Source of the DNA: Vicinamibacterales bacterium
GTDB taxonomy: Bacteria; Acidobacteriota; Vicinamibacteria; Vicinamibacterales; Fen-181
Assembly: GCA_036504215.1 (NCBI GenBank)
Contig: DASXVO010000076.1
Span: forward strand, 1 to 35,078
Direction: 5' to 3'
Length of the DNA stretch: 35,078 nt
In this document: piece by piece, positions 12,806-34,893 of the stretch
Layout of the letters: every line of letters begins with the position of its first letter
Numbering within the stretch: position 1 is the stretch's first letter
Translations under genes and position numbers: made by a program
Notes under the pieces: generated by a model
Databases searched by the model: none
What the model saw: only the letters and a program-made list of their open reading frames with translations
What the model was told of the DNA's origin: nothing

Positions 12806-14437
12806 ATGAAGGTGTTGCTCATCTCGATGCCGGACCGGCATCCGTACATCGCCAAGCGCGAGTACGAGGCGCCGTCGCTCGGCATCTCATCGATTTCCGC
12901 CAACCTGGACCGCCGCCACCAGGTGTGGATTGCCGACCTGTCGGTATGCAAGTGGAGCGTCCGTTCCTCCGTGCGGCGCTCGGTGCGCAAGTTCCGGCCG
13001 GACATCGTCGGCCTGTCGGCGATGATCTTCCAATATTTCACGGCCCGGCGCATCGCGAGACTCATCAAGGAAGAGTTCCCGGGCACGCTGGTCGCCCTGG
13101 GCGGGTACCACGCCACCACGATGGGCCGAGAACTGGCGGAGAGCCCTGAGGCAGAGGCGCTCGATTTCATCTGGCGGGGCGAGGCGGACCACGGATTCGG
13201 CGAGCTGCTCGACGCGCTCGAGGGGCGTCGCGACATCGAGTCGGTCGCCGGGCTGTCGTACAAGCGCGGGGGTGTGTTCCACCACAATCCGCCGCGGCCG
13301 CTCGAAGACCTGTCGACGATCGCGCTGCCCGACCGCGACCGCCGAGTCTACGGGCACTACCACTACTACTTCAACAAGACCGACGTCATGGAGACCTCGC
13401 GGGGTTGCCTGCAGCAGTGCAACTTCTGCTCGATGACCCAGATGTACGGGCCGACGTTCCGCAAGTACACGGTCGATCGCGTGCTCCAGGACGTGCTCGA
13501 CATCGCGAAGCCGCGCGGTGTGCGGCGCGTGGGCCACGCGCTGATCCTCGACGACAACATCACGCTCGACGTGCCGCGGTTCATGGACATCTGCGACGGC
13601 ATCGCATCGCTCAAGACCGGCATGCAGTTCCTCGTCCAGGCCAGCTGCGCGGGCATTGCCAAGGACCCGGCGCTCCCGCGGAAGATGGCCGACGCGGGCG
13701 TGACCATGGTCTTCCTCGGCATCGAGAACGCCTCCGAGGAGAACCTGCGGCAGATGAACAAGGGCCGGATCATCGACGTCACCAGGATTGCGGTGACCCG
13801 GCTGGCCGATGCGGGCATCATCGTCACCGGAGGGCTCATCACCGGGTTCCCGGACGACGATGTGACTGCGATCCGTCGCAACTACGAGTACTTCGCCGGC
13901 CTCGGGATCCGGACGGTGCTCGACCAGATCATCACGCCGTACCCCGGCACCGAGATGCGGCGTCAGTTGCTCGACGCCGGCCTCATCACCAATTTGTACG
14001 ACTACAAGTGGTACACGGGGTACTGGCCGCAGGTACGGACGCGGCACCTGACGTCGAAGCAACTGCTCTTCGAGAAATGGAAGGCACACCGGGAGATCAT
14101 CGACGACTGGCTCGCCGACGATCAGTTCAAGAAGAACTACCCGTACTGGTCGCTCATCTGGAACCGCCTCCTGCGCCCGGTCATCCGGATGAACGAACGC
14201 CGCATGTGCTGGATGTACGGCGAGAAGGGGCGCTTCAAGCGACAGATGGTGCAGTGGGCGCAACTCAACGACTACTTCGGCGACATGGTCATCGACGAGG
14301 GGTTCTTCGACCCCGACGTCGAGGCGCCCGCAGGCATCGGCGACCCGGATGCCGTGCTCGACTTCGGCCGGGCGCCGTACAAGGACGCGAACGACGAGCC
14401 GGCGATCGTTCGCACGGCGACGACAGGACACGCGTGA
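12806..14437 (+). CDS. B12-binding-type radical SAM protein
   Basis: A 543-aa radical SAM enzyme with an N-terminal B12-binding-like domain (MKVLLISMPDRHPYIAKREY, then VALGGYHATT near residue 97). The cobalamin-coordinating DxHxxG histidine is not evident: the corresponding strand reads IADLSVCKWS. The radical SAM motif is C201-LQQ-C205-NF-C208 after ETSRG. The barrel continues with LDDNITLD, MVFLGIENASEENLRQMNKG and GGLITGFPDDD. The last 150 residues are rich in aromatics and Arg. The stop codon overlaps the start of the ammonia-lyase gene (GTGA), so the two products are likely translated together. That suggests it acts on the same pathway intermediate, for example by methylation or a carbon-carbon rearrangement. 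The reaction is not predictable from sequence. Confidence 0.9.
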   Translation: MKVLLISMPDRHPYIAKREYEAPSLGISSISANLDRRHQVWIADLSVCKWSVRSSVRRSVRKFRPDIVGLSAMIFQYFTARRIARLIKEEFPGTLVALGGYHATTMGRELAESPEAEALDFIWRGEADHGFGELLDALEGRRDIESVAGLSYKRGGVFHHNPPRPLEDLSTIALPDRDRRVYGHYHYYFNKTDVMETSRGCLQQCNFCSMTQMYGPTFRKYTVDRVLQDVLDIAKPRGVRRVGHALILDDNITLDVPRFMDICDGIASLKTGMQFLVQASCAGIAKDPALPRKMADAGVTMVFLGIENASEENLRQMNKGRIIDVTRIAVTRLADAGIIVTGGLITGFPDDDVTAIRRNYEYFAGLGIRTVLDQIITPYPGTEMRRQLLDAGLITNLYDYKWYTGYWPQVRTRHLTSKQLLFEKWKAHREIIDDWLADDQFKKNYPYWSLIWNRLLRPVIRMNERRMCWMYGEKGRFKRQMVQWAQLNDYFGDMVIDEGFFDPDVEAPAGIGDPDAVLDFGRAPYKDANDEPAIVRTATTGHA

Positions 14438-15966
14438 CGACTATGGGAACTCAAGCAGCGACTGACAAGGCTATCGTGCTCGACGACCGCCAGGTCTCGT
14501 TCGATTCGGTCGTGCAGGCGGCGGTGGACGGACGGAGCGTCGAGTTGGCGCGCAACCGAGCGTGGCGCCGGCGGCTCGCCGCGAGCCGCGAGGTTCTGGA
14601 ACACGCCCTCGACGCCGGTCAGACGGTCTACGGCGTCTCCACGGGCGTCGGCAACAACTCGTCGCGGGCCGTCGACCGGCAGAACCAGATCGACTTCGCC
14701 ATCTCGGTGATGGAGCAGCACGGCTGTGGGGTCGGCGACCCGTTGTCCGAGGCCGAGGGGCGCGCGGTCACGTTCGCACGTCTGGTGAGCCTGACGAAGG
14801 GGCTGTCCGCGGTTCGGCCGCCGTTGCTCGACGCGCTCTGCGCCCTCCTCAACCACCGCATCACCCCGGTGATCCCGCGGTGGGGCTCGGTCGGCGCGTC
14901 CGGAGACCTGACGCCGCTGTCGTACGTGGCCGCGGTCCTTGCCGGGCAGCGCAAGGCGTACTACCGGGGCCGTATCGTGGACGCCTCGCGCGCCCTGGCC
15001 GCCGAAGGCCTCGAACCCTGGGCCTTCGGTCCCAAGGAGACGCTGGCGATCATGAACGGCACGTCGGTCATGACCGCGGTGGGGATTCTGGCGGTGGCGC
15101 GGTTCGAACGGCTGATCGAGCAACTCGAAGGCGCGTCGGCGCTCGCCACCGAAGTGCTGCTCGGACGGTCGCAGGCGTTCGACCCGCTCGTGCACGCCGC
15201 CAAGCCGCATCCGGGGCAGATCGAGACGGCCAGACGCGTCCGCCAGGCGCTGCGCGGCAGCCGGCTGCTGGATCCGCCGCACAAGAACGGCCGTCCCGTG
15301 CAGGACCGCTACTCGATTCGCTGCGTGCCGCAGGCCGCCGGGGTCGCCCGCGATGTCATCTCGTGGGCGCGCCAGGTCCTCCAGATTGAACTCAACAGCG
15401 TCAACGACAACCCGTTGGTAGACCCGGAATCGAAGCAGATCCTGTTCGGCGGCAACTTCTTCGGCGGCCATCCGGCGGTCGTGATGGATACGGTCAAGAT
15501 CGCGGCGGCCTCGATGGCCGACCTGATCGACCGGCAGTTCGCGTTGCTGGTGGACGAAGGCCACAACATGGGCATGCCCGAAACGCTCGTGCCGTACGGC
15601 GGCTGCGGCGTCAAGGGGCTGCAGATGACCTGCAGTGCGCTCACTGAGTTGGCCGTGCAGCGGTCGTTCCCGGACGCGGTTCTCTCGCGGTCCACCGAGT
15701 GCGCCAACCAGGACAAGGTCAGCATGGGCCTGCAGGCGGCGCTGCACGCGAGCGAGATCATCGGCCTGGTGGGCCGCTCCCTCGCCACGGAGATGATTGC
15801 GCTGTCGAACGCCGCGGCGCTGCGCGAGGAATCGAGGCTGTCGCCGGCCGGCCGCGCCCTGCTGGTGGGTGTCCGGAGGCGGTCGGCGGTGCTCGTCCGC
15901 GACCGTCCGCTCGACGTCGATATCGAGCGGGTCGCGCGCTGGCTGGAGGCGGGCGGGGCGAGGTGA
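14434..15966 (+). CDS. MIO-type aromatic amino acid ammonia-lyase (HAL/TAL family)
   Basis: A 510-aa ammonia-lyase that should remove ammonia from histidine, tyrosine or phenylalanine to give a 2-enoic acid. I use GTG 14434, which overlaps the previous stop and has AGGA five bases upstream; ATG 14443 is the alternative. The MIO cofactor triad A155-S156-G157 is in GSVGASGDLTPLSY, and the catalytic tyrosine Y66 in VYGVSTGVG. The selectivity position reads Q95-H96, whereas bacterial HutH has Ser-His and PAL has Phe-Leu. Retention of His argues against PAL. Other family motifs are IMNGTSVMT, VQDRYSIRC and ELNSVNDNPL. No hut genes are nearby. The one-base overlap with an AMP-ligase gene makes it a supplier of a cinnamate-type starter acid, as in flexirubin and dialkylresorcinol clusters. 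Confidence 0.92.
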   Translation: MTTMGTQAATDKAIVLDDRQVSFDSVVQAAVDGRSVELARNRAWRRRLAASREVLEHALDAGQTVYGVSTGVGNNSSRAVDRQNQIDFAISVMEQHGCGVGDPLSEAEGRAVTFARLVSLTKGLSAVRPPLLDALCALLNHRITPVIPRWGSVGASGDLTPLSYVAAVLAGQRKAYYRGRIVDASRALAAEGLEPWAFGPKETLAIMNGTSVMTAVGILAVARFERLIEQLEGASALATEVLLGRSQAFDPLVHAAKPHPGQIETARRVRQALRGSRLLDPPHKNGRPVQDRYSIRCVPQAAGVARDVISWARQVLQIELNSVNDNPLVDPESKQILFGGNFFGGHPAVVMDTVKIAAASMADLIDRQFALLVDEGHNMGMPETLVPYGGCGVKGLQMTCSALTELAVQRSFPDAVLSRSTECANQDKVSMGLQAALHASEIIGLVGRSLATEMIALSNAAALREESRLSPAGRALLVGVRRRSAVLVRDRPLDVDIERVARWLEAGGAR

Positions 15967-17315
15967 TGACGACCGAGCCACGGGCGCTACGGCTTGGGGC
16001 AGAGCGTCTGGCAACGACCTTCGCAGGTGACCCCGACCGCCCCTTCCTGCGCGAGGGCGGCGAGGTGTGGACGGTTGGCCGTCTGCTGGCGTACGCCGCG
16101 GACGTCGACCACCGGCTCCCTCGAGATGCCGGACCCGCGGTGGGCGTGCGGAGCCATTCAGCCGCGTTCGTCGTGGCATCGCTGCTCGGTCTCTGGAAGT
16201 CGAACCGCCTGCCGCTGCTGATCGATCCGTCGCTGGCGGCCGAGCCGTCCGGCCTTCGAAGCTCATCCCCCCGGATGCCCGTGCTCGCGCCGGCGGGTGT
16301 GACCGACCCCTGGGCCGACGTCCTCGTGGCGGAAACAGGGGGCGGGCTCCTCGATCCACACCTGCCGTTGGCCGACGAGGCCGAAGTCGGGTTCTTCACA
16401 TCCGGCTCCACCGGCGAGCCGAAGATCGTTCGCAAGAGGGCGTATCAGCTCGGGGAACAACACGCGATGGAAGCGCCCTGGCTCGGCCTGAGCGGACCGA
16501 TCTCGGTGCTGTGCCTCGTGCCGGCGTTCCACATCCTTGGCTACATCTACGGTTTCTCGACGCCGGCAGCCGGCGGTGGCGTCACGACGTTCTCGCGCGG
16601 CGCGTCGCCTCAGGCGTGGGTCGAGCACATCGCGGCCGAGCAGCCAACGCTCATCATCGGCGTGCCTTCACACTATCGGCTCATGGCGCAGGTGTCGGGC
16701 CCGTCGCTTCCGCGGGCGATCTATCTCTGTTCCGGCGGACCCCTCGACCCTGCCGTCGCCGCGGAGTTCGAACGTCGGGCGGGGACGCCGGTCCTGCAGG
16801 TCTATGGATCCACCGAGACGGGCGGCATCGCCACGCGCCTTGGCGCCGGGCCCTGGCGCACGATGCCCGGCCTGGCCTGGGAGCGCCGCAAGCTGGATGG
16901 ACGGCTGCTGATCACGTCCGCGTGGCAGGATCGGCCGCAGGAGTGGTACTGCACCGACGACGTCATCGCGTCAGATGGAGAGACGTTCCGCCTGTTGGGG
17001 CGCGCGGACTCGATCGTGAAGATCGGCGGCCGGCGCTTCTCGACCGGCGAACTGGTGCAGGCGGCGCTCACCGCGCCCCACGTCGAGCAGGCGCACGCCG
17101 TCGTCTACGACCGTTTCGGCGAGTTGGCCGTGGCGCTCTTCGTCGTGTCGCCACGGGACGCCGTCGTGACGCCGGCCGACGTCCGGACGTTCCTCGCCGG
17201 CCGGCTCGCGCCGTTCAAACTGCCGCGGACGATCCAGGTCGTGAACGAGTTGCCGACGCGCAGCATCGGCAAGATCGACGACGAAGCCCTGCGCGAGAGC
17301 CTTTCCCGGGGATGA
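15966..17315 (+). CDS. short AMP-dependent ligase (aryl/acyl-acid activating)
   Basis: An ANL-superfamily adenylating enzyme of 449 aa. The ATG overlaps the ammonia-lyase stop by one base (TGATG); GTG 15963 is also possible. Motifs are the ATP loop T145-SGSTGEP-K153, Y280-GSTETGG, YCTDD, the hinge GRADSIVKIGG, and the C-terminal catalytic lysine K436 in SIGKIDD. It is about 50-100 residues shorter than typical acyl-CoA synthetases. This is the size of the AMP-ligases of aryl polyene and dialkylresorcinol clusters, which load aryl acids onto an ACP. The predicted job is to activate the acid made by the preceding lyase and transfer it to the ACP encoded at 33786-34061 or to CoA. It ends 15 bases from the convergent DegT-type gene. 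Confidence 0.9.
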   Translation: MTTEPRALRLGAERLATTFAGDPDRPFLREGGEVWTVGRLLAYAADVDHRLPRDAGPAVGVRSHSAAFVVASLLGLWKSNRLPLLIDPSLAAEPSGLRSSSPRMPVLAPAGVTDPWADVLVAETGGGLLDPHLPLADEAEVGFFTSGSTGEPKIVRKRAYQLGEQHAMEAPWLGLSGPISVLCLVPAFHILGYIYGFSTPAAGGGVTTFSRGASPQAWVEHIAAEQPTLIIGVPSHYRLMAQVSGPSLPRAIYLCSGGPLDPAVAAEFERRAGTPVLQVYGSTETGGIATRLGAGPWRTMPGLAWERRKLDGRLLITSAWQDRPQEWYCTDDVIASDGETFRLLGRADSIVKIGGRRFSTGELVQAALTAPHVEQAHAVVYDRFGELAVALFVVSPRDAVVTPADVRTFLAGRLAPFKLPRTIQVVNELPTRSIGKIDDEALRESLSRG

Positions 17316-17330
17316 GGGCCTCCGAACCGT

Positions 17331-18575
17331 TTACGCCTTTTTCAGCAACTCCGTTCTGACCCTCCGGCCGATCCGCTCGATTTCATGGTCCGCCAGCGAC
17401 TCGTACACGGGGACTTGAACAGCGGTCGCCGCCTTCTCGGCGCCCACGGCCTGCAGACCCTGCCAGCCGAACAGATCCATGTGCGTGCACACGTCCACGT
17501 GCATCGGCGCCACGTCGACGCCCCGCCGGATGCAGCGCCGAACGAGCTGTTGATAGTTCGGGACGTAGGGGCAGTACTGGTAGTAGACGTGCGTCTGCCC
17601 CTCGGGTATGCGCGGGACGCTCACCCCGGGGAGATCCCCGAGCATCTCGTCGAACACCTTCGCGTGCCGCCTGGTGCGCTCGATGAATTCGGGCAGCCGC
17701 TCCAGTCCGGCGAGTCCGAGCGCCGCCTGCACGTTCGAGAACTTGCCGCCGTAGTGGGCCGGCAACGGGTCGAGGCGCTCCACTTTCTCCCAGAGGAAAC
17801 GGTCAGGCTTCGCGTCGAGCCAGGACGTGACCCACCAGATCGGGAACCCGGAATACGTGAACACGGTCGGCCGGATAAAGGTCCGCTGCCACCAGCCGAC
17901 ACGCAAGACGCTCTCCACGCGCTCTGCCGTGGGCCAGGGTTCCGCCTCGGCGTACTCGCCAACGCGCCGCGCCAGCTCGGCGTCCCGCATCCAGGCCAGA
18001 CCGCCACCGAAGGTGTTCAGCGGCTTGAAGGCCTGGAAGCTGAAGAAGCTGGCATCGCCGAACGTGCCCACCATCTGGCCGCGATAGGTGGCCCCCAGCG
18101 AATGCGCACAATCTTCGATCACCTTCAGATCGTGACGGCGGGCGAGCGCGAGGATCGGATCGAGATCGCAGGAGAGCCCGTAGAGGTGCGTGGGCAGCAC
18201 CGCGCGCGTGTTGGGAGTGATCGCGCGCTCCATCGCCGCCGGGCTCAGGGTGAACGTCGTCGGGTCGATGTCGGCGAACACGGGTTTCAGGCCCGCCACC
18301 CTGGTGATCTCCGGGACCACCCAGAACGTGAGCGCGGGCACGATGATCTCCGAGCCCGGCGGGAACTGCATCGACTTCAGGATGTCGAGAAGCGCCATGC
18401 GTCCATATTCCAGGGAGACCGCACGCACGTGCCCCTGGCCCAGGAAGCGGGCAAACGCCTCTTCGAAGGCCGCGATGTGCGGTCCCTGAACGAGTTGCCC
18501 GCGTTGGCGGCAGTCCCGGATGATTTGCGCCGAGTCCGGTACCATCCGCATGCCATATCGCGCGATCGCCGCCAT
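17331..18575 (-). CDS. DegT/DnrJ/EryC1-type PLP aminotransferase
   Basis: A fold-type I aminotransferase of the sugar-aminotransferase (DegT/ArnB) family, 414 aa. I start at ATG 18575, where AAGGAAGG (18590-18583) gives a well-spaced ribosome site; the frame is open to 18635. Motifs are EYGRMALLDIL, IIVPALTFWVVPEITR, FADIDPTTFTL, VIEDCAHSLGATY, and the PLP-binding lysine K184 in FSFQAFKPLNTFGGG. A Trp-rich segment near residues 215-260 is unusual and may contact a hydrophobic substrate. Family members aminate keto-sugars or cyclitols. Here it may put an amino group on a sugar or polar head group of the lipid. It has its own promoter and a long leader, and follows the dehydratase pair on the same strand. 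Confidence 0.9.
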   Translation of the reverse strand: MAAIARYGMRMVPDSAQIIRDCRQRGQLVQGPHIAAFEEAFARFLGQGHVRAVSLEYGRMALLDILKSMQFPPGSEIIVPALTFWVVPEITRVAGLKPVFADIDPTTFTLSPAAMERAITPNTRAVLPTHLYGLSCDLDPILALARRHDLKVIEDCAHSLGATYRGQMVGTFGDASFFSFQAFKPLNTFGGGLAWMRDAELARRVGEYAEAEPWPTAERVESVLRVGWWQRTFIRPTVFTYSGFPIWWVTSWLDAKPDRFLWEKVERLDPLPAHYGGKFSNVQAALGLAGLERLPEFIERTRRHAKVFDEMLGDLPGVSVPRIPEGQTHVYYQYCPYVPNYQQLVRRCIRRGVDVAPMHVDVCTHMDLFGWQGLQAVGAEKAATAVQVPVYESLADHEIERIGRRVRTELLKKA

Positions 18576-18754: not shown

Positions 18755-18782
18755 AGTATCCACGCGCTGAGAAGCGTGTCAA
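18755..18782 (-). promoter_or_regulatory. near-consensus sigma-70 promoter for the DegT-type gene
   Basis: On the minus strand, a perfect TTGACA (18782-18777) and GATACT (18760-18755) are 16 bases apart. The -35 overlaps the stop codon of the upstream dehydratase-like gene. Transcription would start near 18748, leaving a leader of about 170 bases. Within it, CGGTCC and GGACCG (between 18635 and 18653) can form a 6-bp hairpin. Confidence 0.65.
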
Positions 18783-20077
18783 GCCAGCGGCCGACGGATG
18801 CTCTTTCGCTGCTGGTAGCTGCGGGCGAGGTCCATGTAGACGCCGAGGTCCGCTTCGAGGTCCTGCGGCGTGCCGTCGAAGTAGAGCGTGCGGATCGGCA
18901 GGCCGTTCAGGTCTCGTGAGACGCGAGGATACACGGCCTCGCAGACGATTCCGTTCATGCAGGTGAAGGGGCTGATGTCGATGATGCCGTCAACGCCCTT
19001 TTCGGCCAACTTGATGGCGCGACCGACGCTCAACACCATCTCGCCGAGCGCGCCGTCCACGGGGAGGTATGGCTGGGCGGCCTGGACGACCTCCTGCACG
19101 TCAGGTTCTTCGTAGCCTCGAAACTCCTCCTCGAACGGCTCGAGCAGCACCTGCTCGTCGTGATGCTGGACCCGTTCGCGGACCCAGGTCGTGGCACCTT
19201 CGGTCGAGATGAGCCGCCCGTGCAGGCGAAGCTTCCGGTAGGTCTCCGCGACCGTGTACCAGATCCACTCCGTGATACCCGACAGCCAGACCTCCGCGCC
19301 GGCTTGCTCGAGGCGACGCACGGCATCTTCGTTCGAGAACGTGTTCAGCCTGCAGAAGATCTCGCCGACGACGCCGATGAGCGGGCGCGGCGTGGTCCTG
19401 CGGGTGTCGAGTCCGGCGAAGCGAAGGCGACAGCGCACGAGAGACGCCCGGAGCGACAGCAACTGGCCGCGCGGCGATGAAGGACCGTGCTCGACGGCGT
19501 TGCAGATGTCGTCGAGGCATTCCTCGAACGTCGCATCGGCCGTGCCGAGTCGTCGTTCGTACGGACGGTGCCGCAGCAGCAGCTTCTGCAGGATGTCGGC
19601 GGCGACGAGCATCCGCCACGCGGTGCGGACGAACGGTCTGGCGAGTGTGCCGAGCCCGTTGTACGCGTTCTTGCTCGTGGGCGACAGCACCTCGACCTGC
19701 GGAAAGCCGTTGGCGTCGAGTAGCTGCCGCATGTACGACGAGTACTGACCGAAGCGGCACGGGCCGTCGGCGGTCGGCAGGAAGAAGACCGTGCGCGCGG
19801 GGTCGGCGTCCTCGCGCTCGAGGACCCGCATGAAGTCGCCAACCGTCACCTTGGCGGGGAAGCACTCGTCGCCCGAGGTGTAGCGTGCGCCCAGTTCGCG
19901 CGTCCGCGCGTCCGAGGGCGGCGTCAACGCCGCCTCGACGCCGAGCGAGCGGAAGCCCGCCGCGAACGCCCGCGCGCTGCCGTACGCCATCGGGGGGATG
20001 TAGACCTTCTTGCCCGTCAGCGGGTGGGCGCCGTTTCGGCTGCTGACGCGCCGCCCTGGGTCGGCTCCGGATAACAT
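18779..20077 (-). CDS. 2-hydroxyacyl-CoA dehydratase (HgdB)-like / CoA-activase C-terminal protein
   Basis: A 432-aa protein matching the C-terminal part of long CoA-activase/2-hydroxyglutaryl-CoA-dehydratase-like proteins. I start at ATG 20077 because the family-typical TGKKVYIPPM segment lies close behind it; AAGG about ten bases upstream may serve as ribosome site. Conserved cysteines that could hold a [4Fe-4S] cluster are C72 (GDECFPAK), C107 (DGPCRFGQYS) and C373 (FTCMNG); C379 is an additional cysteine. The gene overlaps the end of the preceding activase gene by 61 bases in another frame. Together the two reproduce the order seen in one chain in clostridial PlsA (plasmalogen synthase) and in proposed bacterial glycerol ester reductases. 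The homology class is solid; an ether-lipid role is inference. The frame stays open to 23233, but that part is a shadow of the activase gene. Confidence 0.82.
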   Translation of the reverse strand: MLSGADPGRRVSSRNGAHPLTGKKVYIPPMAYGSARAFAAGFRSLGVEAALTPPSDARTRELGARYTSGDECFPAKVTVGDFMRVLEREDADPARTVFFLPTADGPCRFGQYSSYMRQLLDANGFPQVEVLSPTSKNAYNGLGTLARPFVRTAWRMLVAADILQKLLLRHRPYERRLGTADATFEECLDDICNAVEHGPSSPRGQLLSLRASLVRCRLRFAGLDTRRTTPRPLIGVVGEIFCRLNTFSNEDAVRRLEQAGAEVWLSGITEWIWYTVAETYRKLRLHGRLISTEGATTWVRERVQHHDEQVLLEPFEEEFRGYEEPDVQEVVQAAQPYLPVDGALGEMVLSVGRAIKLAEKGVDGIIDISPFTCMNGIVCEAVYPRVSRDLNGLPIRTLYFDGTPQDLEADLGVYMDLARSYQQRKSIRRPLA

Positions 20078-26471: not shown

Positions 26472-26517
26472 CGTGGTCCCCGCTCCGCTCCGGCATCGAG
26501 GCGCAGGGTGACCTGCG

Positions 26518-27189: not shown

Positions 27190-29612
27190 GGTCGTCGCCG
27201 CTCCTGCAGCAGCGCCGGCAGCACCAGCACGGCCGCGACGAGGCAGCTGGCAATCGTGGTGACCGAGGTGATGCCGAACGAGTGGAGCGGGGCGTAGCTG
27301 GAATTGACGAGGGACCCGAATCCGATGAGCGTCGTCCCGCAGGCCACGAGGATGCCGGCGCCGGTGCGTGTCAGCACTTCCCGCACCTGCCACGTGTGCT
27401 CGACGCTGTGGCGGTAGATGACGTAGATCCCGTAGTCGGTGGCGATGCCGATGAACGTCATCGCCGCAAAGAGCGAGAACAGGTCGAGCTCCACGCGCAG
27501 GAGGGCGAGGAGTCCCGCGCTCCACACGAAGCCGAGCGCCGTCGGCAGGAACGCGAGGAGCGTATCGCGGACGCTGCGAAACACGAAGTAGATCAGCAGT
27601 GCGACCCCGAGCGTGCCGACGATCACCCCTTTCAGGAACTGGGGAAGGAAGCGCTGAGCCAGCTCGCGGTTCACCTGCGGGACGCCGGTCAGGCGGAACG
27701 ATGGGGCGGCACGATTGACCAGGCGCGAGACGCGTTCGACATCGGCTGCGGCCCGGGGATAGAGATACACGACCACGAGGTAGCCGGTCTCGGTGCGGGC
27801 GACGTACCGGGACACGAGCGACGAGAGACCGTGCTGCTGCAGGCCCTCGTACGTGATGCGCTCGGTGGAGTCGAGCATGCGGGGAAGCCGCCCAGCAAAC
27901 CCGTCGAACGTGCCTGGCCGGAAACCGGCCGCTTTTGCCGCCCGGCTGAGTTCTGCGACGACCGCCGCCGGCTGGAGGCCGGACTGTCGAACGAGCAGCG
28001 CCACCTCACCCTGCGCCGTTGCGGGGGGCAGCAGCGTATCGGGCGAACTGAACGCCACGGATGGCAGTTCGTGCTCGACGGCGCCAGCGATGCGGCGGGT
28101 GTCCTGGAGCAGCGGTTCGAGGTCGCGCCCTTCGCCAACGGCGAGCAAGACGTCGCGCGGAAGCGAAAAACGGGTTGCCATCTGCTGCTCGAGCGCCGCG
28201 CCCTCCGTATTCGCCTGGAGCTTCTCGAGGCGCGTGTCGAGGCGCAGCGAAGTGGCGGCAATTCCGAGCACGAGGGTGAGGACGGCCGCGGTCCAGAGGA
28301 TCGGGCGGCCGAACCGTTCGACGAACACCCCGAGCCAGGCCGATGTGACCGGCCGCCGGTGCACTTCGGGGCGAGTGAACCCGACGAGCGCGGGGACCAG
28401 CGTGAGGAGCAGCAGACAGCACGCGATGATGCCGAGGCCGACGAGACGACCGAGTTCCTCGAGGCTCGGGAAGTCGACGAGCATGAGCGCCAGGAACGTC
28501 GTGCCAGTCGTGGCGTACGCGAGCAGAATGCTCGAGGCCGTGCCCGAGCACCTCGCGACGGCCTCAACCTCGGAATAGCCCCGGCCGCGCTCCTCCATGT
28601 ATCGCAGATACAGCAATGCGATGCCGTCGATGCCCAGGCCGAACAGCATCGCCGACGCGCCGCTCGTGGCCGGCGTGAGCTTGCCGGCGAGACCGTTCAC
28701 ACCGAGCGTGAAGACAGCGGCAATGACCAGCGGCACCGTCGCGTAGAGCAGTATCCACGGCGTCCGGAAGACGATGAAGACGAGGGCGAGGAGGCCGGCC
28801 AGCGAGGTCAGGGAATTGACGATCGACTCCACGCGGATGACCCGTTCGGCCTCGAGCGCGATCCGGTACCCCCCCGCGATCTGGATCCGCAGGTTCGCGG
28901 TGCGATCCACGTCCCTGCGGGCAGCAGCCTCGACCTCCCCGAGCCGCGCGAACAGCCGCTTGCAGAAGTCGGTGTCGAACGGCGGCCGCACGGGTTTCGC
29001 AATGACCAGGCGGCTACGGCCGTCGCGAGAGACATAGCCTTTCTGCGTCGGATCGAAGCTGACGAGCGCCTCACCACGCGAGAGCCGATCGCGCAGCAAC
29101 CGCAGAAGACCGAGTGGGTCCTGCTGAACGTAGGCCTTGACCTCGGGCGACGACATCGCGAGCATCCCGCGCGATCGCTCGAGCTCGCCCGTCATGCCGG
29201 CCGGAGCCAGCCGCGCGAGCGCCGCGGCCGACTGGTCCTTCCCGAGGAGCAGCAGTTCGCGGTCGAACAGGTAGTTCCAATCCTTCACCGAGTCGAACAG
29301 TTCGGCGTCGACCGACGCGATCTCCGGCGCACGACGCAGCCGCTCGACGTAGGCGTCGATTAGATCCTCCTGATCCGAGATCCTTCCGTCCGGCACCTCG
29401 AACAGCACGTAGATGTGGTCGAGCGTGCCGAAGTGCTCGAGGTAGGTGTTGAAGCTGCGGACCGCCAGGCCCTTCTGGGGCAGGAGGTTGAGGATGTTGG
29501 CGTCGAACGACAGGCGGGACAGGAGCGCCACGGACAGGAGAAACACCGCGGCGGCGGCGGCGAGGACCGTGCCTCGACGTGTGAAGGCGAAGCGCAGGAG
29601 TCGCTCGATCAT
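27186..29612 (-). CDS. MMPL/RND-family lipid exporter
   Basis: An inner-membrane RND-type transporter of 808 aa, translationally coupled to the radical SAM gene upstream (ATGA overlap) and to the glycosyltransferase downstream. MIERLLRFAFTRRGTVLAAAAAVFLL begins the first membrane helix. A periplasmic loop follows (about 35-245), then five helices (about 250-420: SLAGLLALVFIVF, IAAVFTLGVNG, LFGLGIDGIALLYLRYMEERGRG and others). The pattern repeats in the second half (helix near 440, loop 460-640, then LGVALLIYFVF through AAVLVLPALLQ). The pairs GLGIDGIALLY and FIGIATDYGIYVIYRH carry the acidic residues used in proton coupling. Related proteins move hopanoids, glycolipids and aryl polyenes. It most likely moves the cluster product to the periplasmic side. 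Confidence 0.92.
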   Translation of the reverse strand: MIERLLRFAFTRRGTVLAAAAAVFLLSVALLSRLSFDANILNLLPQKGLAVRSFNTYLEHFGTLDHIYVLFEVPDGRISDQEDLIDAYVERLRRAPEIASVDAELFDSVKDWNYLFDRELLLLGKDQSAAALARLAPAGMTGELERSRGMLAMSSPEVKAYVQQDPLGLLRLLRDRLSRGEALVSFDPTQKGYVSRDGRSRLVIAKPVRPPFDTDFCKRLFARLGEVEAAARRDVDRTANLRIQIAGGYRIALEAERVIRVESIVNSLTSLAGLLALVFIVFRTPWILLYATVPLVIAAVFTLGVNGLAGKLTPATSGASAMLFGLGIDGIALLYLRYMEERGRGYSEVEAVARCSGTASSILLAYATTGTTFLALMLVDFPSLEELGRLVGLGIIACCLLLLTLVPALVGFTRPEVHRRPVTSAWLGVFVERFGRPILWTAAVLTLVLGIAATSLRLDTRLEKLQANTEGAALEQQMATRFSLPRDVLLAVGEGRDLEPLLQDTRRIAGAVEHELPSVAFSSPDTLLPPATAQGEVALLVRQSGLQPAAVVAELSRAAKAAGFRPGTFDGFAGRLPRMLDSTERITYEGLQQHGLSSLVSRYVARTETGYLVVVYLYPRAAADVERVSRLVNRAAPSFRLTGVPQVNRELAQRFLPQFLKGVIVGTLGVALLIYFVFRSVRDTLLAFLPTALGFVWSAGLLALLRVELDLFSLFAAMTFIGIATDYGIYVIYRHSVEHTWQVREVLTRTGAGILVACGTTLIGFGSLVNSSYAPLHSFGITSVTTIASCLVAAVLVLPALLQERRRP

Positions 29613-31015
29613 TGCCCGCTCAACCGGTGCTCGGCGAGGTAGTACTGAGGATCCATCATCCGCTGCGTGCGGTAGAGCATTCGCATGAGGTACGGAAGAT
29701 GCCCCGGCTTCACCTCCGTGAGCCACCGCCACCAGGGCTTGCTGCCGCCCAGGTTGAGCACCGACCGGCGCCAGGTCTCGCAGTAGAGCTCGAAGAAGCG
29801 CCGCGCCCCGAGCTTCGGTTCCCACAGCAGGTGGCTCATGTCGAACTGCGACCACAGATCCGCACGAATCTTCGTGCGCACCGCTTCGTAGTAGGGCGTG
29901 CCCGGTAGCGGCGTGAGGATCGTGTAGCCGGTCCGATGCAGCCGATGCTCGTCGACGAAGGCCCAGAGGCGCTCGAAATCGGCTTCGTCCCACTCCGGGT
30001 CGATGACGAAGTTCCCGGTCACGCCGTACCCGTGCTCGCGCGCCACGCGAATGCCGTCGATCGTCCGCTGGAGCGTCGTGTCCTTCGACAGACCATCGAG
30101 CGAAGCGTCGGAGGCGGCCTCGAGCCCGAAGAAGATATCGATCTTCGTCGAGAACGGCCGCCACGCCTCGAGCAGTTCAGGGTGCGCCGCCACCAGGTCG
30201 GTCCGCGTCTGCACCAGGATCCACTCCTTGTGAATCCCCCTCTTGATCAACTCGCGCGCCAGTTCCTCGCTGCGATCGCCCCGATGCCAGAACAGGTCGT
30301 CGGCGACGAAGACGTAAGGTCCGACGGACGCGAAGTCGCGGCACACCGCGTCCACCGACCGCAGCCGGTACGAACGGCTGTAGACCGGCCACACCGAGCA
30401 GAACGAACAGCGGAAGGGGCAGCCTCGCGCGGTCTCGACCAGCCAGGTCGGCCGGTAGTTGAGGCACGCGTAGTCGCAAAACCCGGTCACCACCGCGTGA
30501 CGCGCAGGCAGCGGCACCTCGTCCAGGCTGACGGGCTCGGCCTCAGGCGTGGCGACGAACCGGCCATCGCCGACGTTCAGCAGCAGCCCGGCCACTTCGT
30601 CAATCGACCGGCCCCGGCTCAGCGCCTCGACCAATTCGGGAACGACACGCTCGCCGTCCCCCACGCAGATCGCGTTCACCTCGGGGCATTGGAGTGGTTC
30701 AGGGAAGGCCGCCGCCGAGTGGCCGCCGAGCAGCAGGAACACGTCGGGCGCGGCGCGTCGCACCTGCCGCGCCACCGTCAGCGCGTCGTCCATCTCGAGG
30801 GAGTGCATGCAGGCCACGCCGACGACCGACGGACGGTGCCGCGCCAGGATCCGCTCCACCGAACCCGCAAACCGCAGGTCCAAGACGACGGCGCGGTGAC
30901 CGCCGGCTTCGAGCGCGGCCGCGACGTACTCGAGGCCGAGCGGCTCGGTCCTGAAGAACGGGCCGAGGCCGAAGCGCTCGTTGCACGGAACCGGTCGGAT
31001 CAGGAGAACATCCAT
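29609..31015 (-). CDS. B12-binding-type radical SAM protein
   Basis: A 468-aa enzyme; I start at ATG 31015 (MDVLLIRPVPCNERFGLGP) because the family domain begins there, while the frame opens at 31054. The N-terminal B12-binding-like domain has LLLGGHSAAAFPE near residue 100. Its ligand strand reads VVLDLRFAGS, without the usual cobalamin histidine. The radical SAM motif is C199-PFR-C203-SF-C206 in ETARGCPFRCSFCSVW. Other marks are VADDLFWHRGDR, FFGLEAASDASLDGLSKDTT and TPLPGTPYYE. The 60 C-terminal residues are basic and aromatic. It is co-operonic with the LolA-like protein and the exporter, so it probably modifies the exported lipid or pigment. The reaction is unknown. Confidence 0.9.
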   Translation of the reverse strand: MDVLLIRPVPCNERFGLGPFFRTEPLGLEYVAAALEAGGHRAVVLDLRFAGSVERILARHRPSVVGVACMHSLEMDDALTVARQVRRAAPDVFLLLGGHSAAAFPEPLQCPEVNAICVGDGERVVPELVEALSRGRSIDEVAGLLLNVGDGRFVATPEAEPVSLDEVPLPARHAVVTGFCDYACLNYRPTWLVETARGCPFRCSFCSVWPVYSRSYRLRSVDAVCRDFASVGPYVFVADDLFWHRGDRSEELARELIKRGIHKEWILVQTRTDLVAAHPELLEAWRPFSTKIDIFFGLEAASDASLDGLSKDTTLQRTIDGIRVAREHGYGVTGNFVIDPEWDEADFERLWAFVDEHRLHRTGYTILTPLPGTPYYEAVRTKIRADLWSQFDMSHLLWEPKLGARRFFELYCETWRRSVLNLGGSKPWWRWLTEVKPGHLPYLMRMLYRTQRMMDPQYYLAEHRLSGQ

Positions 31016-31072
31016 CCCGCCCGGAGGGTACCATCTGGTGGAGGAGTGGATCAAGGAAGGGGAGCAGTGCGA

Positions 31073-31699
31073 CTACTTCGCGACCTCGAAGGCGTTCGGG
31101 GCCAGTGGCGTGTTCAGCGTGATGTCGTCGATCCGGATGGTGTCGCTGTCGCCGCCGGGAAAGGACATCTTCATCTGGCGCAGCAGCAGGCTGTCGCGGT
31201 CGATCCAGATCTGCAGCCGCTGGAGTCCCTGCTTGATCTGCTTGCGCCTGGGCACCATGTCGAGCTGGTAGGCATTGCTGAACTCGGTGTCGGGGAAGGC
31301 CCGCACATCGAACGCGCGCCGCACCTGGCTGGCGTCGGCGTTGGTGAAGTACTGGTTCACGCGCTTCATGATCTCCGTGATATCCAGCTTCTCGGTCTCT
31401 CCTCGGTCGTGCCAGAACACCACGAGCCGGTTGCCATCCATCAGGAGCGTCTTGCGCTCGGGCGACATGTACTTCAGCAGGAGCCGAGGCGGCTTGGCCG
31501 CGATCAGCGTTCCCTTCGCGACCAAGGGCTTGGCCAGCAGCGACGAGACGGTCGTCTCCGTGAAGCGCGCGCTGATCGTCTGGATCTTCGCCTCCATGAT
31601 TCGCCCGCGGGCGTGCAGATCATCGAAGAGGTCCTGCCCACCTGACGCCAGGCAGACCGAGAGCGCGACGGTGATCAAGCTGATGGCGAGGATGCGCAT
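31073..31699 (-). CDS. LolA-like periplasmic lipid carrier
   Basis: A 208-aa protein with a signal peptide (MRILAISLITVALSVCLASGG) and the half-barrel LolA fold pattern: ISARFTETT, LAKPLVAKGTLIAAKPPRLLLKY, GNRLVVFWHD, WIDRDSLLLRQMKM, ITLNTPLAPNAFEV. The Cys at residue 16 (LSVCLASG) gives a weak lipobox-like sequence, so it could be a lipoprotein instead. LolA-like proteins carry acylated cargo across the periplasm, and a cluster-specific copy is a hallmark of aryl polyene loci. It heads the minus-strand export operon and is divergent from the ketosynthase-fold gene. A TATCAT hexamer (31763-31758 on the minus strand) is a possible -10. Confidence 0.88.
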   Translation of the reverse strand: MRILAISLITVALSVCLASGGQDLFDDLHARGRIMEAKIQTISARFTETTVSSLLAKPLVAKGTLIAAKPPRLLLKYMSPERKTLLMDGNRLVVFWHDRGETEKLDITEIMKRVNQYFTNADASQVRRAFDVRAFPDTEFSNAYQLDMVPRRKQIKQGLQRLQIWIDRDSLLLRQMKMSFPGGDSDTIRIDDITLNTPLAPNAFEVAK

Positions 31700-31776
31700 G
31701 GCGGCGGTCGGCGGCAGCGCGCAGGACGCGTGGGCGCTTGTATGGATCCGACGGCCAATGATAGCGTACTCCCCTC

Positions 31777-33000
31777 ATGCGCGACCGCGTGGTCATCACC
31801 GGATTCGGATGTGTGTCGAGCCTGGGCGTCGGCACCGCGGCCTTCGTTGACGGTCTGTTGGCCGGGCGGAGCGGCATCGCTCCAATCACCTCCTTCAGCA
31901 CCGAAGGTTGCCGCTCGCACACCGCCGCGTTGCTCCGCGACTTCGACCCCTCACGCTTTCTGGAACCCCTGAAGCTCAGGCGCGTGGACGAGGTCGGTCG
32001 CCTGGCCCTGGCCGCCTGCCGCCTGGCGATCGACGATGCGCGGCTGCCGACGAAAACGGACGGCGTCGGCGTCGTGATGGGGACGGCGACCTCGGGCCTT
32101 CACAGCACGCTCTCCCATCTGCGCAGCCTCACAGAGGGCGGACCGGCCGCCGTGCCGGCGCTGGGGTTCAGCAACACCGTGGGCAATGCCGCCGCCAGCC
32201 TCTGTGCCATCGAGTTCGGCCTGCGCGGCCCCAACATCACGTTCGCCCAGAAGCAGGCGTCGTCGCTCGCGGCCATTGCGTACGCGGCGCGCGCGCTAGA
32301 GGACGGGCGAATCTCCGCCTTCCTCACGGGCGGCTTCGACGACTTCGAGGAGCAGTTCTTCCGGGTGCACGACCGGCTTCGGGTGCTGGCGCGCGCCTCC
32401 ACCGACGGCGGCGAAGAGGCGAGCCGACCCTTCGACCGCCGGCGCAACGGCTTCGTGCTCGGCGCGGGCGGCCACGTCGTGGTCCTCGAGACAGCCACGT
32501 CGGCCGGCGCCCGTGGCGCGACGGTGTACGGCGAGGTCCTCGGCCTCGGGACGGGCGCGTCGGAGAGCGCGCTCAACGGCTGGCCGGCCGATGGCGCCGG
32601 CATCGCGAGGACGATGCGCGCCGCGCTGGACGAGGCAGGGCTGGAACCGGCGCACGTGGACGTCGTCTTCGCGTCCGCCAACTCGTCGCGCGGTCTGGAC
32701 CACGCCGAGGCCAGCGCCCTCGAGGCCGTCTTCGGTCCCTCGGCTGTTCCGGTCGTGTCGCTCAAGGGTGCCATCGGTGAACACGGCGCGGCGGGCGCGG
32801 CGGCACTGACGGCAGCGCTGCTTTGTCCTCGACGTGGTCAGGTGCCCCCGACCCTCGGGTCGTCGGAACCGGATCCTGCATGCCGGGTCGACATCAGCGT
32901 GGCGGCCCGTCCGGCGCGCGGACCGGTGGCGTTGATCAACGCCACGGCTGCCGGCGGGTCCCACTACACCCTCGCGGTCAAGGCACTGCCACAGGATTGA
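31777..33000 (+). CDS. ketosynthase-fold protein with inactive-type active site (CLF/KSQ-like)
   Basis: A 407-aa protein with the beta-ketoacyl-ACP synthase fold (RVVITGFGCVSSLGVGT, VVMGTATSGLHST, FSNTVGNAAASLCAIEFGLRGP). The three catalytic positions are all changed. The nucleophile cysteine position is Q160 (FAQKQASSLAAIAYA). The first histidine (HGTGT) is N302 (SANSSRGLDHAEA). The second (GH in KxxxGH) is E335, followed by H336 (KGAIGEHGAAG). Gln for Cys is the signature of chain length factors and of decarboxylating KSQ domains. It should therefore be the non-condensing partner of an active ketosynthase, as in the KS/CLF pair of aryl polyene and type II PKS systems. No active partner is in the window. 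It starts the operon with KR and ACP. Confidence 0.87.
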   Translation: MRDRVVITGFGCVSSLGVGTAAFVDGLLAGRSGIAPITSFSTEGCRSHTAALLRDFDPSRFLEPLKLRRVDEVGRLALAACRLAIDDARLPTKTDGVGVVMGTATSGLHSTLSHLRSLTEGGPAAVPALGFSNTVGNAAASLCAIEFGLRGPNITFAQKQASSLAAIAYAARALEDGRISAFLTGGFDDFEEQFFRVHDRLRVLARASTDGGEEASRPFDRRRNGFVLGAGGHVVVLETATSAGARGATVYGEVLGLGTGASESALNGWPADGAGIARTMRAALDEAGLEPAHVDVVFASANSSRGLDHAEASALEAVFGPSAVPVVSLKGAIGEHGAAGAAALTAALLCPRRGQVPPTLGSSEPDPACRVDISVAARPARGPVALINATAAGGSHYTLAVKALPQD

Positions 33001-33002
33001 AG

Positions 33003-33773
33003 GTGACCAACGTGTCGGAGAGTGCACGCCGTCGCTCGCTCGAAGGCCGCGTGGCGGCCGTCACCGGCGGATCGCGGGGGATCGGCCGTGCCGTCGCGGC
33101 GAAGCTGGCTGAGCAGGGGGCCGCAATCGCCGTGTCGTTCGTGACGCAGGAAGCCGCCGCGCGCGAGTTCGAAGCCATGCTCCGCGCCAGCGGCTCACGA
33201 GCGCTGGCCGCCAGGTGCGACGTCAGCCGGCCGGACGAGGTCGCCTCGTTCTTCGACCTCGTTCACGCCGATCTCGGGCCGGTGGACATCCTCGTCAACA
33301 ACGCCGGCATCGTCCGCGATGCGATGTTCGCGCTGATGGACGGCGAGCGGTGGGACCAGGTGCTGGCCGTGAACCTCGACGGTCCGTTCCACTGCATCCG
33401 TGCCGTCCTGCGAGGCATGCTCGTTCGGCGCTGGGGGCGTATCATCAACATGGTATCGCCCAGCGCGCAACATGGCGTGGTCGGTCAGGCCAACTACGCG
33501 GCCTCGAAAGGCGGACTGCTGGCCTTGACGCGCACGCTGTCACGCGAGGTGGCCCGAAACGGTGTGCTCGTCAACGCGGTCTCGCCCGGGCTGATTGACA
33601 CGGACATGCTGGCGGGGTTGCCGGCGAAGGCCCGCGACGGCCTCATGGCCAACGTGGCGATGGGTCGCGCGGGACGTCCCGACGAGGTCGCGGCGCTCGT
33701 CGCATTTCTCGCCTCGGACGAGGCGAGCTACGTCACTGGACAGGTAATCGGGGTCGATGGCGGCCTCTTCTAA
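33003..33773 (+). CDS. FabG-type 3-oxoacyl-ACP reductase (SDR)
   Basis: A 256-aa short-chain dehydrogenase that should reduce 3-oxoacyl-ACP with NADPH. GTG 33003 is used because AGGA (32992-32995) lies seven bases upstream; the gene starts two bases after the ketosynthase-fold stop. The cofactor loop is TGGSRGIGRA, followed by NNAGIV. The catalytic Ser is in NMVSPSAQHG, thirteen residues before the Tyr of NYAASKGG (YxxxK). The C-terminal VTGQVIGVDGGLF is the standard FabG ending. Within this operon it is the KR of the chain-extension system. Confidence 0.94.
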   Translation: MTNVSESARRRSLEGRVAAVTGGSRGIGRAVAAKLAEQGAAIAVSFVTQEAAAREFEAMLRASGSRALAARCDVSRPDEVASFFDLVHADLGPVDILVNNAGIVRDAMFALMDGERWDQVLAVNLDGPFHCIRAVLRGMLVRRWGRIINMVSPSAQHGVVGQANYAASKGGLLALTRTLSREVARNGVLVNAVSPGLIDTDMLAGLPAKARDGLMANVAMGRAGRPDEVAALVAFLASDEASYVTGQVIGVDGGLF

Positions 33774-33785
33774 CCGAACAATCCG

Positions 33786-34061
33786 ATGGATCAACCACTC
33801 TCGCTGCAGGTCAAGGAGGCCATCATTCGGAGCCTCCGTCTCCCGATGACACCCCAGGACATCGCCGACAGCGTGCCGCTGTTCGGTGAGGGCCTGGGCC
33901 TCGATTCAATCGACGCGCTCGAGCTGGTGCTCGAGCTCGAACGCTCCTTCGGCGTCGTCGTCGGCGACGACCAGTTGGGCGGTCGTGTGTTGCGCAGCGT
34001 CGACACGATCGTCGAGTTCATCGAACAGAAGCGCGGCCAGGGCCCGGCGCCCACGTCGTAG
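33786..34061 (+). CDS. acyl carrier protein
   Basis: A 91-aa acidic carrier protein. The phosphopantetheine attachment serine is S41 in GLGLDSIDALELVLELE, followed by the usual helix III region ending VDTIVEFIEQK. It starts 12 bases after the KR stop. It is the likely carrier of the aryl or acyl chain activated by the ligase at 15966-17315 and reduced by the KR. Its tail GQGPAPTS is disordered. Confidence 0.93.
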   Translation: MDQPLSLQVKEAIIRSLRLPMTPQDIADSVPLFGEGLGLDSIDALELVLELERSFGVVVGDDQLGGRVLRSVDTIVEFIEQKRGQGPAPTS

Positions 34062-34077
34062 GCGGGACGCCCGAACG

Positions 34078-34893
34078 GTGCGCAACTACCTGACCGTCGA
34101 CGTCGAAGAATGGTTTCACATCTGTGGCGTCGGCGGCCCCCTGGCGCCCGATCGGTGGACCACGCTGCCCAGTCGCGTCGAACGGACCACCGATCTCGTG
34201 CTCGACCTGCTCGAGCGGTGCCGCGTCACCGCGACCTTCTTCGTGCTCGGCTGGGTCGCCGAGCGGCATCCCCCCCTCATCGGCCGGATTCTGAGCGGCG
34301 GCCACGAGGTCGCGTCGCACGGCTGGTCGCACAGCCGGCTCTACGAGATGGCCCCAGACGCGGTCGAGACCGAGGTGGCACGCACCACGGCGGCGCTCCA
34401 GGCGGCCGGCGCACCGGCGCCCCTGGGGTTCCGCGCTCCCGAGTGGTCCATCAACGACCGCTCGCTCTGGGCACTCGACATCCTCGCGCGGCAGGGTCTT
34501 CGGTACGATTCGAGCATGGCGCCGCTACGCCTGATCGGGAATCCACGCTATCCTGAGATCCCGCACGTGCGGGAGACGGCGCACGGGCCGTTGCTCGAGG
34601 TGCCGCCGGCAGTCCGCCAGAAGTTCGGCTGCAACATTCCGTTCGGCGGCGGCTGGGGCCTCCGCATGTGCCGCCCCGCGATGGTGCTGCGCGAGATCGA
34701 GCGGCGCAACCGATTGGGTGTACCGGTGACCCTGTTCGTGCATCCCTGGGAGATCGATCCGGATCCCCCGCGCGTCAGCCTGCCGTGGACGCTGGCGTTC
34801 AGCCACTACTTCCGGCTGGATGGCTTCGACGGTCGTCTGAATGACATCCTCGCCGACGCGTCGTTCGGCCCGATCGGCGGTGGCATCAACTGA
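34078..34893 (+). CDS. polysaccharide deacetylase with DUF3473-like end
   Basis: A carbohydrate esterase family 4 protein of 271 aa; GTG 34078 gives the family-typical start RNYLTVDVEEWFH. D8 in the TVDVEE segment and H81-GWS-H85 (ASHGWSHSRL) are the expected catalytic and metal positions. GFRAPEWSIN is the conserved arginine motif. VTLFVHPWEIDPDPPRVSLPW near the C-terminus matches the DUF3473 tail seen in deacetylases of exosortase/PEP-CTERM exopolysaccharide loci. There is no signal peptide, so it is probably cytosolic or membrane-peripheral. It may deacetylate an N-acetyl sugar on the lipid. It follows the ACP by 16 bases in the same operon. Confidence 0.87.
   Translation: MRNYLTVDVEEWFHICGVGGPLAPDRWTTLPSRVERTTDLVLDLLERCRVTATFFVLGWVAERHPPLIGRILSGGHEVASHGWSHSRLYEMAPDAVETEVARTTAALQAAGAPAPLGFRAPEWSINDRSLWALDILARQGLRYDSSMAPLRLIGNPRYPEIPHVRETAHGPLLEVPPAVRQKFGCNIPFGGGWGLRMCRPAMVLREIERRNRLGVPVTLFVHPWEIDPDPPRVSLPWTLAFSHYFRLDGFDGRLNDILADASFGPIGGGIN

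Follow-up and report, generated by a model that had tools for sequence, protein, structure and literature searches.

The presence of an aromatic amino acid ammonia-lyase, a ketosynthase (KS)-fold protein, envelope lipid transporters and several radical S-adenosylmethionine (SAM) enzymes side by side on contig DASXVO010000076.1 (C76) of a Vicinamibacterales bacterium (Acidobacteriota; GenBank assembly GCA_036504215.1) raises the question of which product such a locus makes and where in the cell it is delivered. The stretch analysed here (hereafter referred to as the window) comprises bases 1-35078 of this 138,216-base contig, which belongs to a draft genome of 5.9 Mb coded G000. The locus is believed, with a probability of about 0.72, to build a lipid of the aryl polyene (APE) type by the logic of xanthomonadin and flexirubin synthesis, with the outer membrane as its destination, and to have recruited lipid-radical chemistry in addition. 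Annotation of the locus proteins was performed with Pfam and NCBIfam models, folds were examined with AlphaFold models and fold searches (Foldseek), and a simple program based on codon scores supplied the gene starts. What is read directly from the sequence comprises gene content, orthology, synteny, the state of the active sites and predicted folds.

The core of the locus consists of an AMP ligase, an LpxL-type acyltransferase, a family 2 glycosyltransferase (GT2), an MMPL transporter, LolA, a KS-fold protein (KS1), a ketoreductase (KR), an acyl carrier protein (ACP), a polysaccharide deacetylase, a large outer-membrane protein named LolX and a second ketosynthase (KS2), accompanied in many genomes by the methyltransferase MT2 and a PHP gene. 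Most of the core genes were matched by BLAST in a textbook APE cluster (Moellerella plasmid) and a flexirubin-type cluster (Persicobacter plasmid), at 18-46% identity, and the gene set also agrees with the published arcuflavin (PMC3949708) and flexirubin (PMC3992019) clusters, which supports the aryl polyene- or flexirubin-type reading proposed in a preliminary description of this DNA. Orthologous loci are present in three genomes of the same family (G001, G002 and G006), and the core recurs in other families (G040, G042, G015, G009, G021, G049, G031, G435 and others), with identities of mostly ~40-70% across several families of the order; since the gene set has been kept across these families, its arrangement is far beyond chance. 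MT2 orthologs in the loci of the order are 41-46% identical, and no counterparts of the DegT aminotransferase and the methyltransferase MT1 were found in the related loci examined. Judged from their distribution, the lyase, the two B12-radical SAM enzymes (rSAMA and rSAMB) and the GerA-GerB pair are additions of the window family or genus. Because several of the related genomes are fragmented, a gene missing from a locus is weaker evidence than one that was found there.

Gene calls and Pfam matches place the locus at 10687 to ~40137 on one contig, with the Tes-like radical SAM gene on the minus strand at 10687-12639 (TesL) as its left boundary. All the genes named in the preliminary description were found, and the gene set that it had delimited at 12806-34893 is real, with bounds that proved too narrow. 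The radical SAM enzymes, the DegT aminotransferase and the dehydratase/activase pair that it had seen mixed in are likewise all present, the pair being re-identified here as Ger/PlsA-like, while the deacetylase (34078-34893, a locus member), TesL and LolX were absent from it, the last two lying just outside its coordinates. The genes are, in order:

10687-12639, minus strand: TesL, radical SAM enzyme, apparently dedicated Tes paralog (NCBIfam Tes, PDB 7tol, Cys pattern, tree clade)
12806-14437, plus strand: rSAMA, B12-binding radical SAM enzyme (PF02310 and PF04055; BchE-like, 130 bits)
14443-15966, plus strand: aromatic amino acid ammonia-lyase of the methylidene-imidazolone (MIO) type (PF00221, E 8e-146)
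15963-17315, plus strand: short AMP-dependent acyl ligase, putative aryl-acid activation (PF00501 and PF13193; 4-coumarate-CoA ligase model ranked second)
17331-18575, minus strand: DegT-type aminotransferase, accessory (PF01041)
18779-20077, minus strand: GerB, COG3581-like (activase-associated dehydratase) subunit (weak PF09989)
20017-23121, minus strand: GerA, two BcrAD/BadFG ATPase domains and DUF2229 (PF01869 twice, PF09989)
23336-24394, plus strand: methyltransferase MT1, accessory (PF13649)
24391-25575, plus strand: MT2, DUF2062 with methyltransferase (PF09835 and methyltransferase domains)
25512-26471, minus strand: LpxL/PIM-type acyltransferase (PF03279, E 1.5e-32)
26518-27189, minus strand: GT2 glycosyltransferase, polyprenyl-phosphate type (PF00535; AglJ and PpgS models top, sub-cut-off)
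27186-29612, minus strand: MMPL/HAE3 inner-membrane lipid transporter (PF03176; ApeM counterpart)
29609-31015, minus strand: rSAMB, B12-radical SAM enzyme like HpnR (hopanoid C-3 methylase) (TIGR04367, 218 bits, cut-off 650)
31073-31699, minus strand: LolA-like periplasmic carrier (PF03548; LolA2_flexi the top NCBIfam model)
31777-33000, plus strand: KS1, KS-fold protein of the chain length factor (CLF) type (Cys replaced by Gln/Glu, HGT lost)
33003-33773, plus strand: ketoreductase, FabG/FlxB type (PF13561; FabG 282 bits, FlxB 243 bits)
33786-34061, plus strand: ACP (PF00550; PRK09184 top model; DSI phosphopantetheine site)
34078-34893, plus strand: polysaccharide deacetylase, XrtA-type family (PF01522 and PF11959; TIGR03006, 236 bits, cut-off 276)
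34950-35078, plus strand: start of LolX (gene to contig 37955), GH39-like and LolA-like domains and Omp85-type barrel (gene calls, Pfam, AlphaFold)
Beyond the window edge: LolX to its end (34950-37955), PHP (37952-38920) and the active ketosynthase KS2 (38917-40137)

The KS-fold protein, KR and ACP grouped together in the preliminary description do stand together; the KS of the window, however, carries Gln at the position of the catalytic Cys and has lost the HGT motif, and its orthologs have Gln or Glu at this position and no HGT in 11/11 cases. That description had named flanks devoid of an active ketosynthase as evidence against its reading; the right flank codes for KS2, ~4 kb past the window edge, in which the C, H, K and H residues are intact, as they are in 11/11 orthologs. 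Based on these residues, KS2 and KS1 are predicted to form a KS-CLF pair like those of type II systems and like ApeO-ApeC (PMC8253772). The KR and the ACP look active, with YxxxK present in the former and the DSI phosphopantetheine site in the latter, which is 46% identical to ApeE. No FabA/Z dehydratase was recognised by Pfam in the window or in the right flank to contig 47 kb, in agreement with the preliminary description; this is, however, probably not a distinguishing feature of the locus, as ten relatives carry a FabA/Z-type dehydratase within or beside it and an unlinked ortholog exists in G000. An extra module between KS2 and GerAB was observed in G001 (L043:14971-18461), with a deacetylase, a GT2, an ApeI-like dehydratase and a DUF2062 methyltransferase.

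The starter unit is likely to be an aryl acid derived from Phe or Tyr. The lyase has the ASG motif, carries Gln where histidine ammonia-lyase (HAL) has its substrate-binding Glu, and reads Gln-His in motif 1; the Gln is as in phenylalanine and tyrosine ammonia-lyases (PAL/TAL), and the His of motif 1 is as in HAL. HAL models rank top in NCBIfam at 412 bits, below their cut-off, and two further, more HAL-like genes are present in G000. FlxA, the lyase of flexirubin synthesis and a TAL according to its assay, likewise has a first motif like that of HAL, together with a second motif of the TAL/PAL kind (PMC3992019); this precedent, together with the Gln at the HAL Glu position, makes a starter derived from Phe or Tyr likely. 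Lyase orthologs with 74-77% identity occupy the same locus in G001, G002 and G006, and AMP ligase orthologs (65-69%) lie beside the lyase in the relatives. A chorismatase (PF21168, FkbO/Hyg5 family, XanB2 type) was found beside or near the AMP ligase in G009, G040 and G015, an enzyme type that provides hydroxybenzoate for xanthomonadin and arcuflavin (PMC3949708). The MIO lyase and a shorter ligase occupy this place in the window family and, therefore, the starter supply has been swapped, an exchange at one locus that illustrates starter-unit change in pigment pathways.

TesL looks dedicated to the aryl-lipid pathway. It matches the sequence of GDGT-MAS, the tetraether lipid synthase Tes of PDB 7tol, with an E-value of 4e-65 over 92-583, and has the CxxxCxxC radical SAM motif and further conserved Cys residues as in its paralogs. 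A Tes-like gene is present in 43 of the 51 good genomes of the order, nearly always as a housekeeping copy elsewhere (in G000, at C37:67996-69825); these housekeeping genes are relevant to producers of branched glycerol dialkyl glycerol tetraethers (brGDGTs) or iso-diabolic acid. In the phylogenetic tree of these proteins, the cluster-type copies form one group (support 73/82) and the housekeeping copies another (100/100). The strongest evidence for the dedication of TesL lies in the neighbourhoods. A cluster-type paralog occurs in 10 of 162 genomes from the order and has an aryl-lipid AMP ligase in its vicinity in every one of them (10/10), whereas none of 16 housekeeping copies has aryl-lipid neighbours within ~3 kb, except for one generic short-chain dehydrogenase/reductase match. 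Three cluster-type copies (G435, G515 and G446) had been predicted to lie at aryl-lipid loci before their neighbourhoods were inspected; in all three, the paralog either adjoins a cluster-type AMP ligase or is no more than three genes away from one. The complete core is present in G435; the support from G515 and G446 (contig of 7.8 kb) is thinner, because the AMP ligase alone was seen nearby. A tryptophan-halogenase-like flavin enzyme (FAD type) and a UbiE-like methyltransferase lie between the AMP ligase and TesL in G435 (L173:1973-4001), and a halogenase is also present in arcuflavin clusters. Bacterial tetraether synthase homologs have had no demonstrated role (PMC8941075, PMC11868695); the tie between TesL and the AMP ligase offers a concrete substrate hypothesis for one of them and cautions that not every bacterial Tes homolog signals brGDGT synthesis.

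GerA and GerB together make up a putative split ester-to-ether reductase of the Ger/PlsA type. GerA contains two PF01869 domains and DUF2229 with two sets of ATPase motifs, which is the architecture of the glycerol ester reductase (Ger) and PlsA, and GerB, with a weak DUF2229 match, is presumably a COG3581-like protein. The type with two activation domains has been linked to Ger, a maker of alkyl ethers, and Ger and PlsA are not separable by sequence alone (PMC13274423). The GerB ortholog of G002 (73%) is paired with GerA, the pair is also found in G001, and three species of the genus have GerAB inside the locus, though its place there is not the same in all of them (two positions). In G006, the pair is located elsewhere, in an apparent Tes-like-GerA-GerB operon (L083:7922-14086, G006:C23) whose Tes-like gene represents a third Tes type with 33% identity to TesL; this operon is a good candidate for the synthesis of an ether or membrane-spanning lipid. 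As the Ger pair of G006 lies away from the locus, the link of Ger to the aryl lipid is weaker than that of TesL. Among the B12 enzymes, rSAMA is kept next to the lyase in G006 and is a fragment in G001, and rSAMB has orthologs of 76-79% identity within the locus of G002 and G006.

Attachment and export are represented by several genes. The best NCBIfam scores of GT2 are with models of polyprenyl-phosphate sugar transferases (AglJ, PpgS), below the cut-off, and it is a reasonable inference that GT2 and the deacetylase prepare an amino-sugar lipid, which would then be acylated by the LpxL-like enzyme. MMPL and LolA are the counterparts of ApeM and ApeL, and the closest NCBIfam model of LolA is LolA2_flexi, scored under its cut-off. 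The AlphaFold models of LolX (mean pLDDT confidence score 68.6 for the whole protein and 74.7 for the C-terminal 589 residues) predict an unusual succession of domains. Residues 26-401 form a GH39-like barrel in the model (PslG, Z 24.1, root-mean-square deviation (rmsd) 4.0, 335 aligned); glycosidase activity was considered and judged unlikely, and the domain is probably not an enzyme, because the GH39 catalytic positions that were inspected show no conserved acidic residue. A LolA-like domain follows at ~420-660 (Pfam LolA_like at 514-569), where a fold search with the C-terminal model also matched the LolA-superfamily chain 3buu (Foldseek E 6e-6), and residues ~672-998 are predicted to form a 16-strand barrel of the Omp85 type (BamA 8xnb, Z 22.3, rmsd 3.9, 295 aligned; TamA also matched); no POTRA domains were recognised in LolX by Pfam or the fold searches. 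From this predicted architecture, LolX could accept the lipid that LolA hands over and insert it in the outer membrane or move it across. How aryl polyenes finally enter or cross this membrane has been described as unknown (PMC8253772), and LolX is a candidate for this terminal export step. The LolX family was identified in 134 of 396 Acidobacteriota genomes, and a scan of contigs with the LolX alignment also gave a match in the Acidobacteria metagenome-assembled genome JADGOB010000056. Some copies in other classes lie within ~8-12 kb of fabG-fabF. The family of LolA-Omp85 proteins could represent a general outer-membrane lipid exporter.

These components can be arranged in a probable pathway, for which we infer all the substrates, the order of the steps and the action of the Tes-like, Ger-like and B12 enzymes on the same lipid. 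The PAL/TAL-like lyase would deaminate Phe or Tyr and the AMP ligase would activate the resulting aryl acid, which KS2/KS1(CLF), KR and the unlinked FabA/Z dehydratase would extend on the ACP. GT2, the deacetylase and the LpxL-like acyltransferase would join the chain to a (deacetylated) glycolipid, and MMPL, LolA and LolX would convey the lipid to the outer membrane and insert it there or pass it through. TesL may form a C-C bond between chains, the two B12-radical SAM enzymes may add methyl groups and, in this genus, the split Ger-type reductase may convert ester to ether. The most likely product is, thus, an aryl-polyene lipid that is modified by C-C coupling or methylation and may carry an ether linkage. 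As the cluster has gained a Tes relative, a putative ether-forming reductase and an outer-membrane protein of unusual make-up, the aryl lipid that it produces and exports may be of a novel type. In a bolder version, which is conceivable and on the whole unlikely, TesL would couple the distal ends or mid-chain carbons of two aryl lipids (or of an aryl and a fatty acyl chain) and Ger would make the ether, giving a macrocyclic or membrane-spanning aryl ether lipid delivered via the LolA-Omp85 fusion; if true, this lipid would represent a hitherto undescribed class in the cell envelope.

Several observations weigh against the aryl-polyene reading with recruited lipid-radical chemistry. The dehydratase ortholog of G000 lies outside the locus, at G000:C21:15747-16169 (70% identity, FabA-like domain), where it adjoins genes judged by eye to be of M16-type peptidases, with a gene like that of 3-deoxy-D-arabino-heptulosonate 7-phosphate (DAHP) synthase ~5 kb off; such a split has a precedent in Azoarcus, whose two arc loci are unlinked and both required (PMC3949708). 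The preliminary description had also named clustering of the KS, LolA and MMPL proteins outside all known aryl polyene, DAR and related clades as evidence against its reading; the KS tree recovers KS1 and KS2 each as monophyletic but does not group them with the APE ketosynthases, setting neither firmly within or outside the APE clades, and long branches meet around their position among FabF, ApeO, ApeR and the flexirubin-type ketosynthases. TesL scores 329 bits with the NCBIfam Tes model (NF045702), under the equivalog cut-off of 450, and Luteitalea-type loci lack TesL, so that the core pathway does not depend on it. Outside the window family or genus, no locus was found to contain Ger, the lyase or rSAMB, and the LolX relatives outside the order are, among the copies examined, not in such loci.

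The same observations bear on the rival explanations. It is possible, though doubtful, that the aryl-polyene core is real and that the genes of the Tes-like, Ger-like and B12-radical SAM enzymes work for the general lipids of the membrane (ether or membrane-spanning), as mere neighbours or co-regulated genes. Tes and Ger homologs are known or proposed for membrane-spanning lipids (PMC8941075, PMC13274423), G006 has its separate GerA-GerB-Tes-like operon off the locus and the core of Luteitalea-type genomes stands without TesL; yet a housekeeping Tes-like copy is available elsewhere in most genomes, the cluster-type copy forms a clade of its own tied to the AMP ligase, and the Ger orthologs remain in the locus despite their changed position. 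An aryl lipid devoid of a conjugated polyene, for example of a hydroxylated or resorcinol type, would fit the lack of a FabA/Z gene from the window up to contig 47 kb on its right and the unlinked place of the ortholog. Such a product is distinctly unlikely, as the dehydratase stays with the locus in the relatives, another of ApeI-like type is present in G001, the unlinked ortholog retains 70% identity and its FabA-like domain, and no DarA/DarB-like gene was seen in the locus.

The lyase could also be read as a HAL providing a urocanate starter, or as a catabolic gene, given the top rank of the HAL models and the His at the second residue of motif 1. This is most improbable in view of the Gln that replaces the HAL substrate-binding Glu, the two more HAL-like genes in the genome, the operon shared with an aryl-acid-type ligase at the chorismatase place of the relatives, and FlxA, which has a HAL-like motif 1 and is a TAL (PMC3992019). 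An exopolysaccharide or O-antigen-like glycolipid as the product, suggested by the GT2, the XrtA-type polysaccharide deacetylase and the DegT aminotransferase, is hardly to be expected, since such a pathway has no use for KS/CLF, KR, ACP, AMP ligase and a lyase or chorismatase, and arcuflavin and flexirubin clusters regularly include a deacetylase and a GT2 (PMC3949708, PMC3992019).

Outside the locus, a partial B12-radical SAM gene was observed at the contig start (window 1-663), with a 75%-identical DNA copy at G000:C43:41051-41717. It is followed at 855-10488 by a row of genes for a tricorn-type protease, a class I aminotransferase, a beta-lactamase-family serine hydrolase and an M14 carboxypeptidase, which are probably involved in peptide degradation. 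No tRNA or Rfam matches were found in the window.

In comparison with the known systems, the locus shares with the xanthomonadin/arcuflavin (arc) clusters (PMC3949708) an AMP ligase, ACP, KR, KS with a KS-fold partner, glycosyltransferase, acyltransferase, LolA, exporter, methyltransferase and polysaccharide deacetylase, as well as the chorismatase and the linked dehydratase of the window's relatives. It differs from them in that the window family has a lyase in place of the chorismatase, Tes-like, Ger-like, B12-radical SAM and LolX genes have been added, and no dialkylresorcinol (DAR) genes were seen in the locus; in particular, the annotated genes of the window and its right flank, as far as contig 47 kb, include none of the ketoacyl synthase (KAS) III type that would point to DarA/DarB. 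The flexirubin (flx) clusters share the starter supply by an ammonia-lyase and a 4-coumarate-type ligase, KS/CLF, KR, ACP, deacetylase, LolA, GT2 and exporter (PMC3992019), whereas identities to the Persicobacter plasmid are 18-45% and radical SAM enzymes, Ger and LolX are added here; the Persicobacter cluster has its own aromatic ammonia-lyase and a DUF2062 fused to GT2. The APE clusters of the E. coli/Vibrio/Xenorhabdus type share counterparts of ApeH, ApeE, ApeQ, ApeO/ApeR, ApeJ, ApeL and ApeM, whereas counterparts of ApeG, ApeK and ApeN were not found, a dedicated lyase is the putative starter source, and GT2 and the acyltransferase are separate genes. KS-hit loci on an E. coli plasmid and in Enterobacter and Caballeronia were rejected as yardsticks as they have no LolA/MMPL/AMP-ligase set, and one in Cupriavidus as its record is without annotation; plasmid searches with MMPL, LpxL and TesL gave weak or distant matches only, apart from the Persicobacter plasmid.

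Beyond the pigment clusters, TesL is homologous to Tes (GDGT-MAS, 7tol) over most of its length and belongs to a separate paralogous clade tied to aryl-lipid loci. The Ger pair has the same domains as Ger/PlsA (two PF01869 and DUF2229 with a COG3581-like partner), here split in two genes inside an aryl-lipid locus, and the barrel of LolX resembles Omp85 proteins (BamA, TamA), with LolA-like and GH39-like domains in the place before the barrel. Acidobacteriota aryl-polyene clusters far from the known families have already been reported (PMC8692599) and, therefore, the class itself is not new in this phylum. None of the described clusters that we found contains a dedicated Tes paralog, a Ger pair or LolX; the new elements of this aryl-lipid locus are the apparently dedicated Tes paralog, the genus-level split Ger/PlsA-type reductase and the fused outer-membrane protein LolX.

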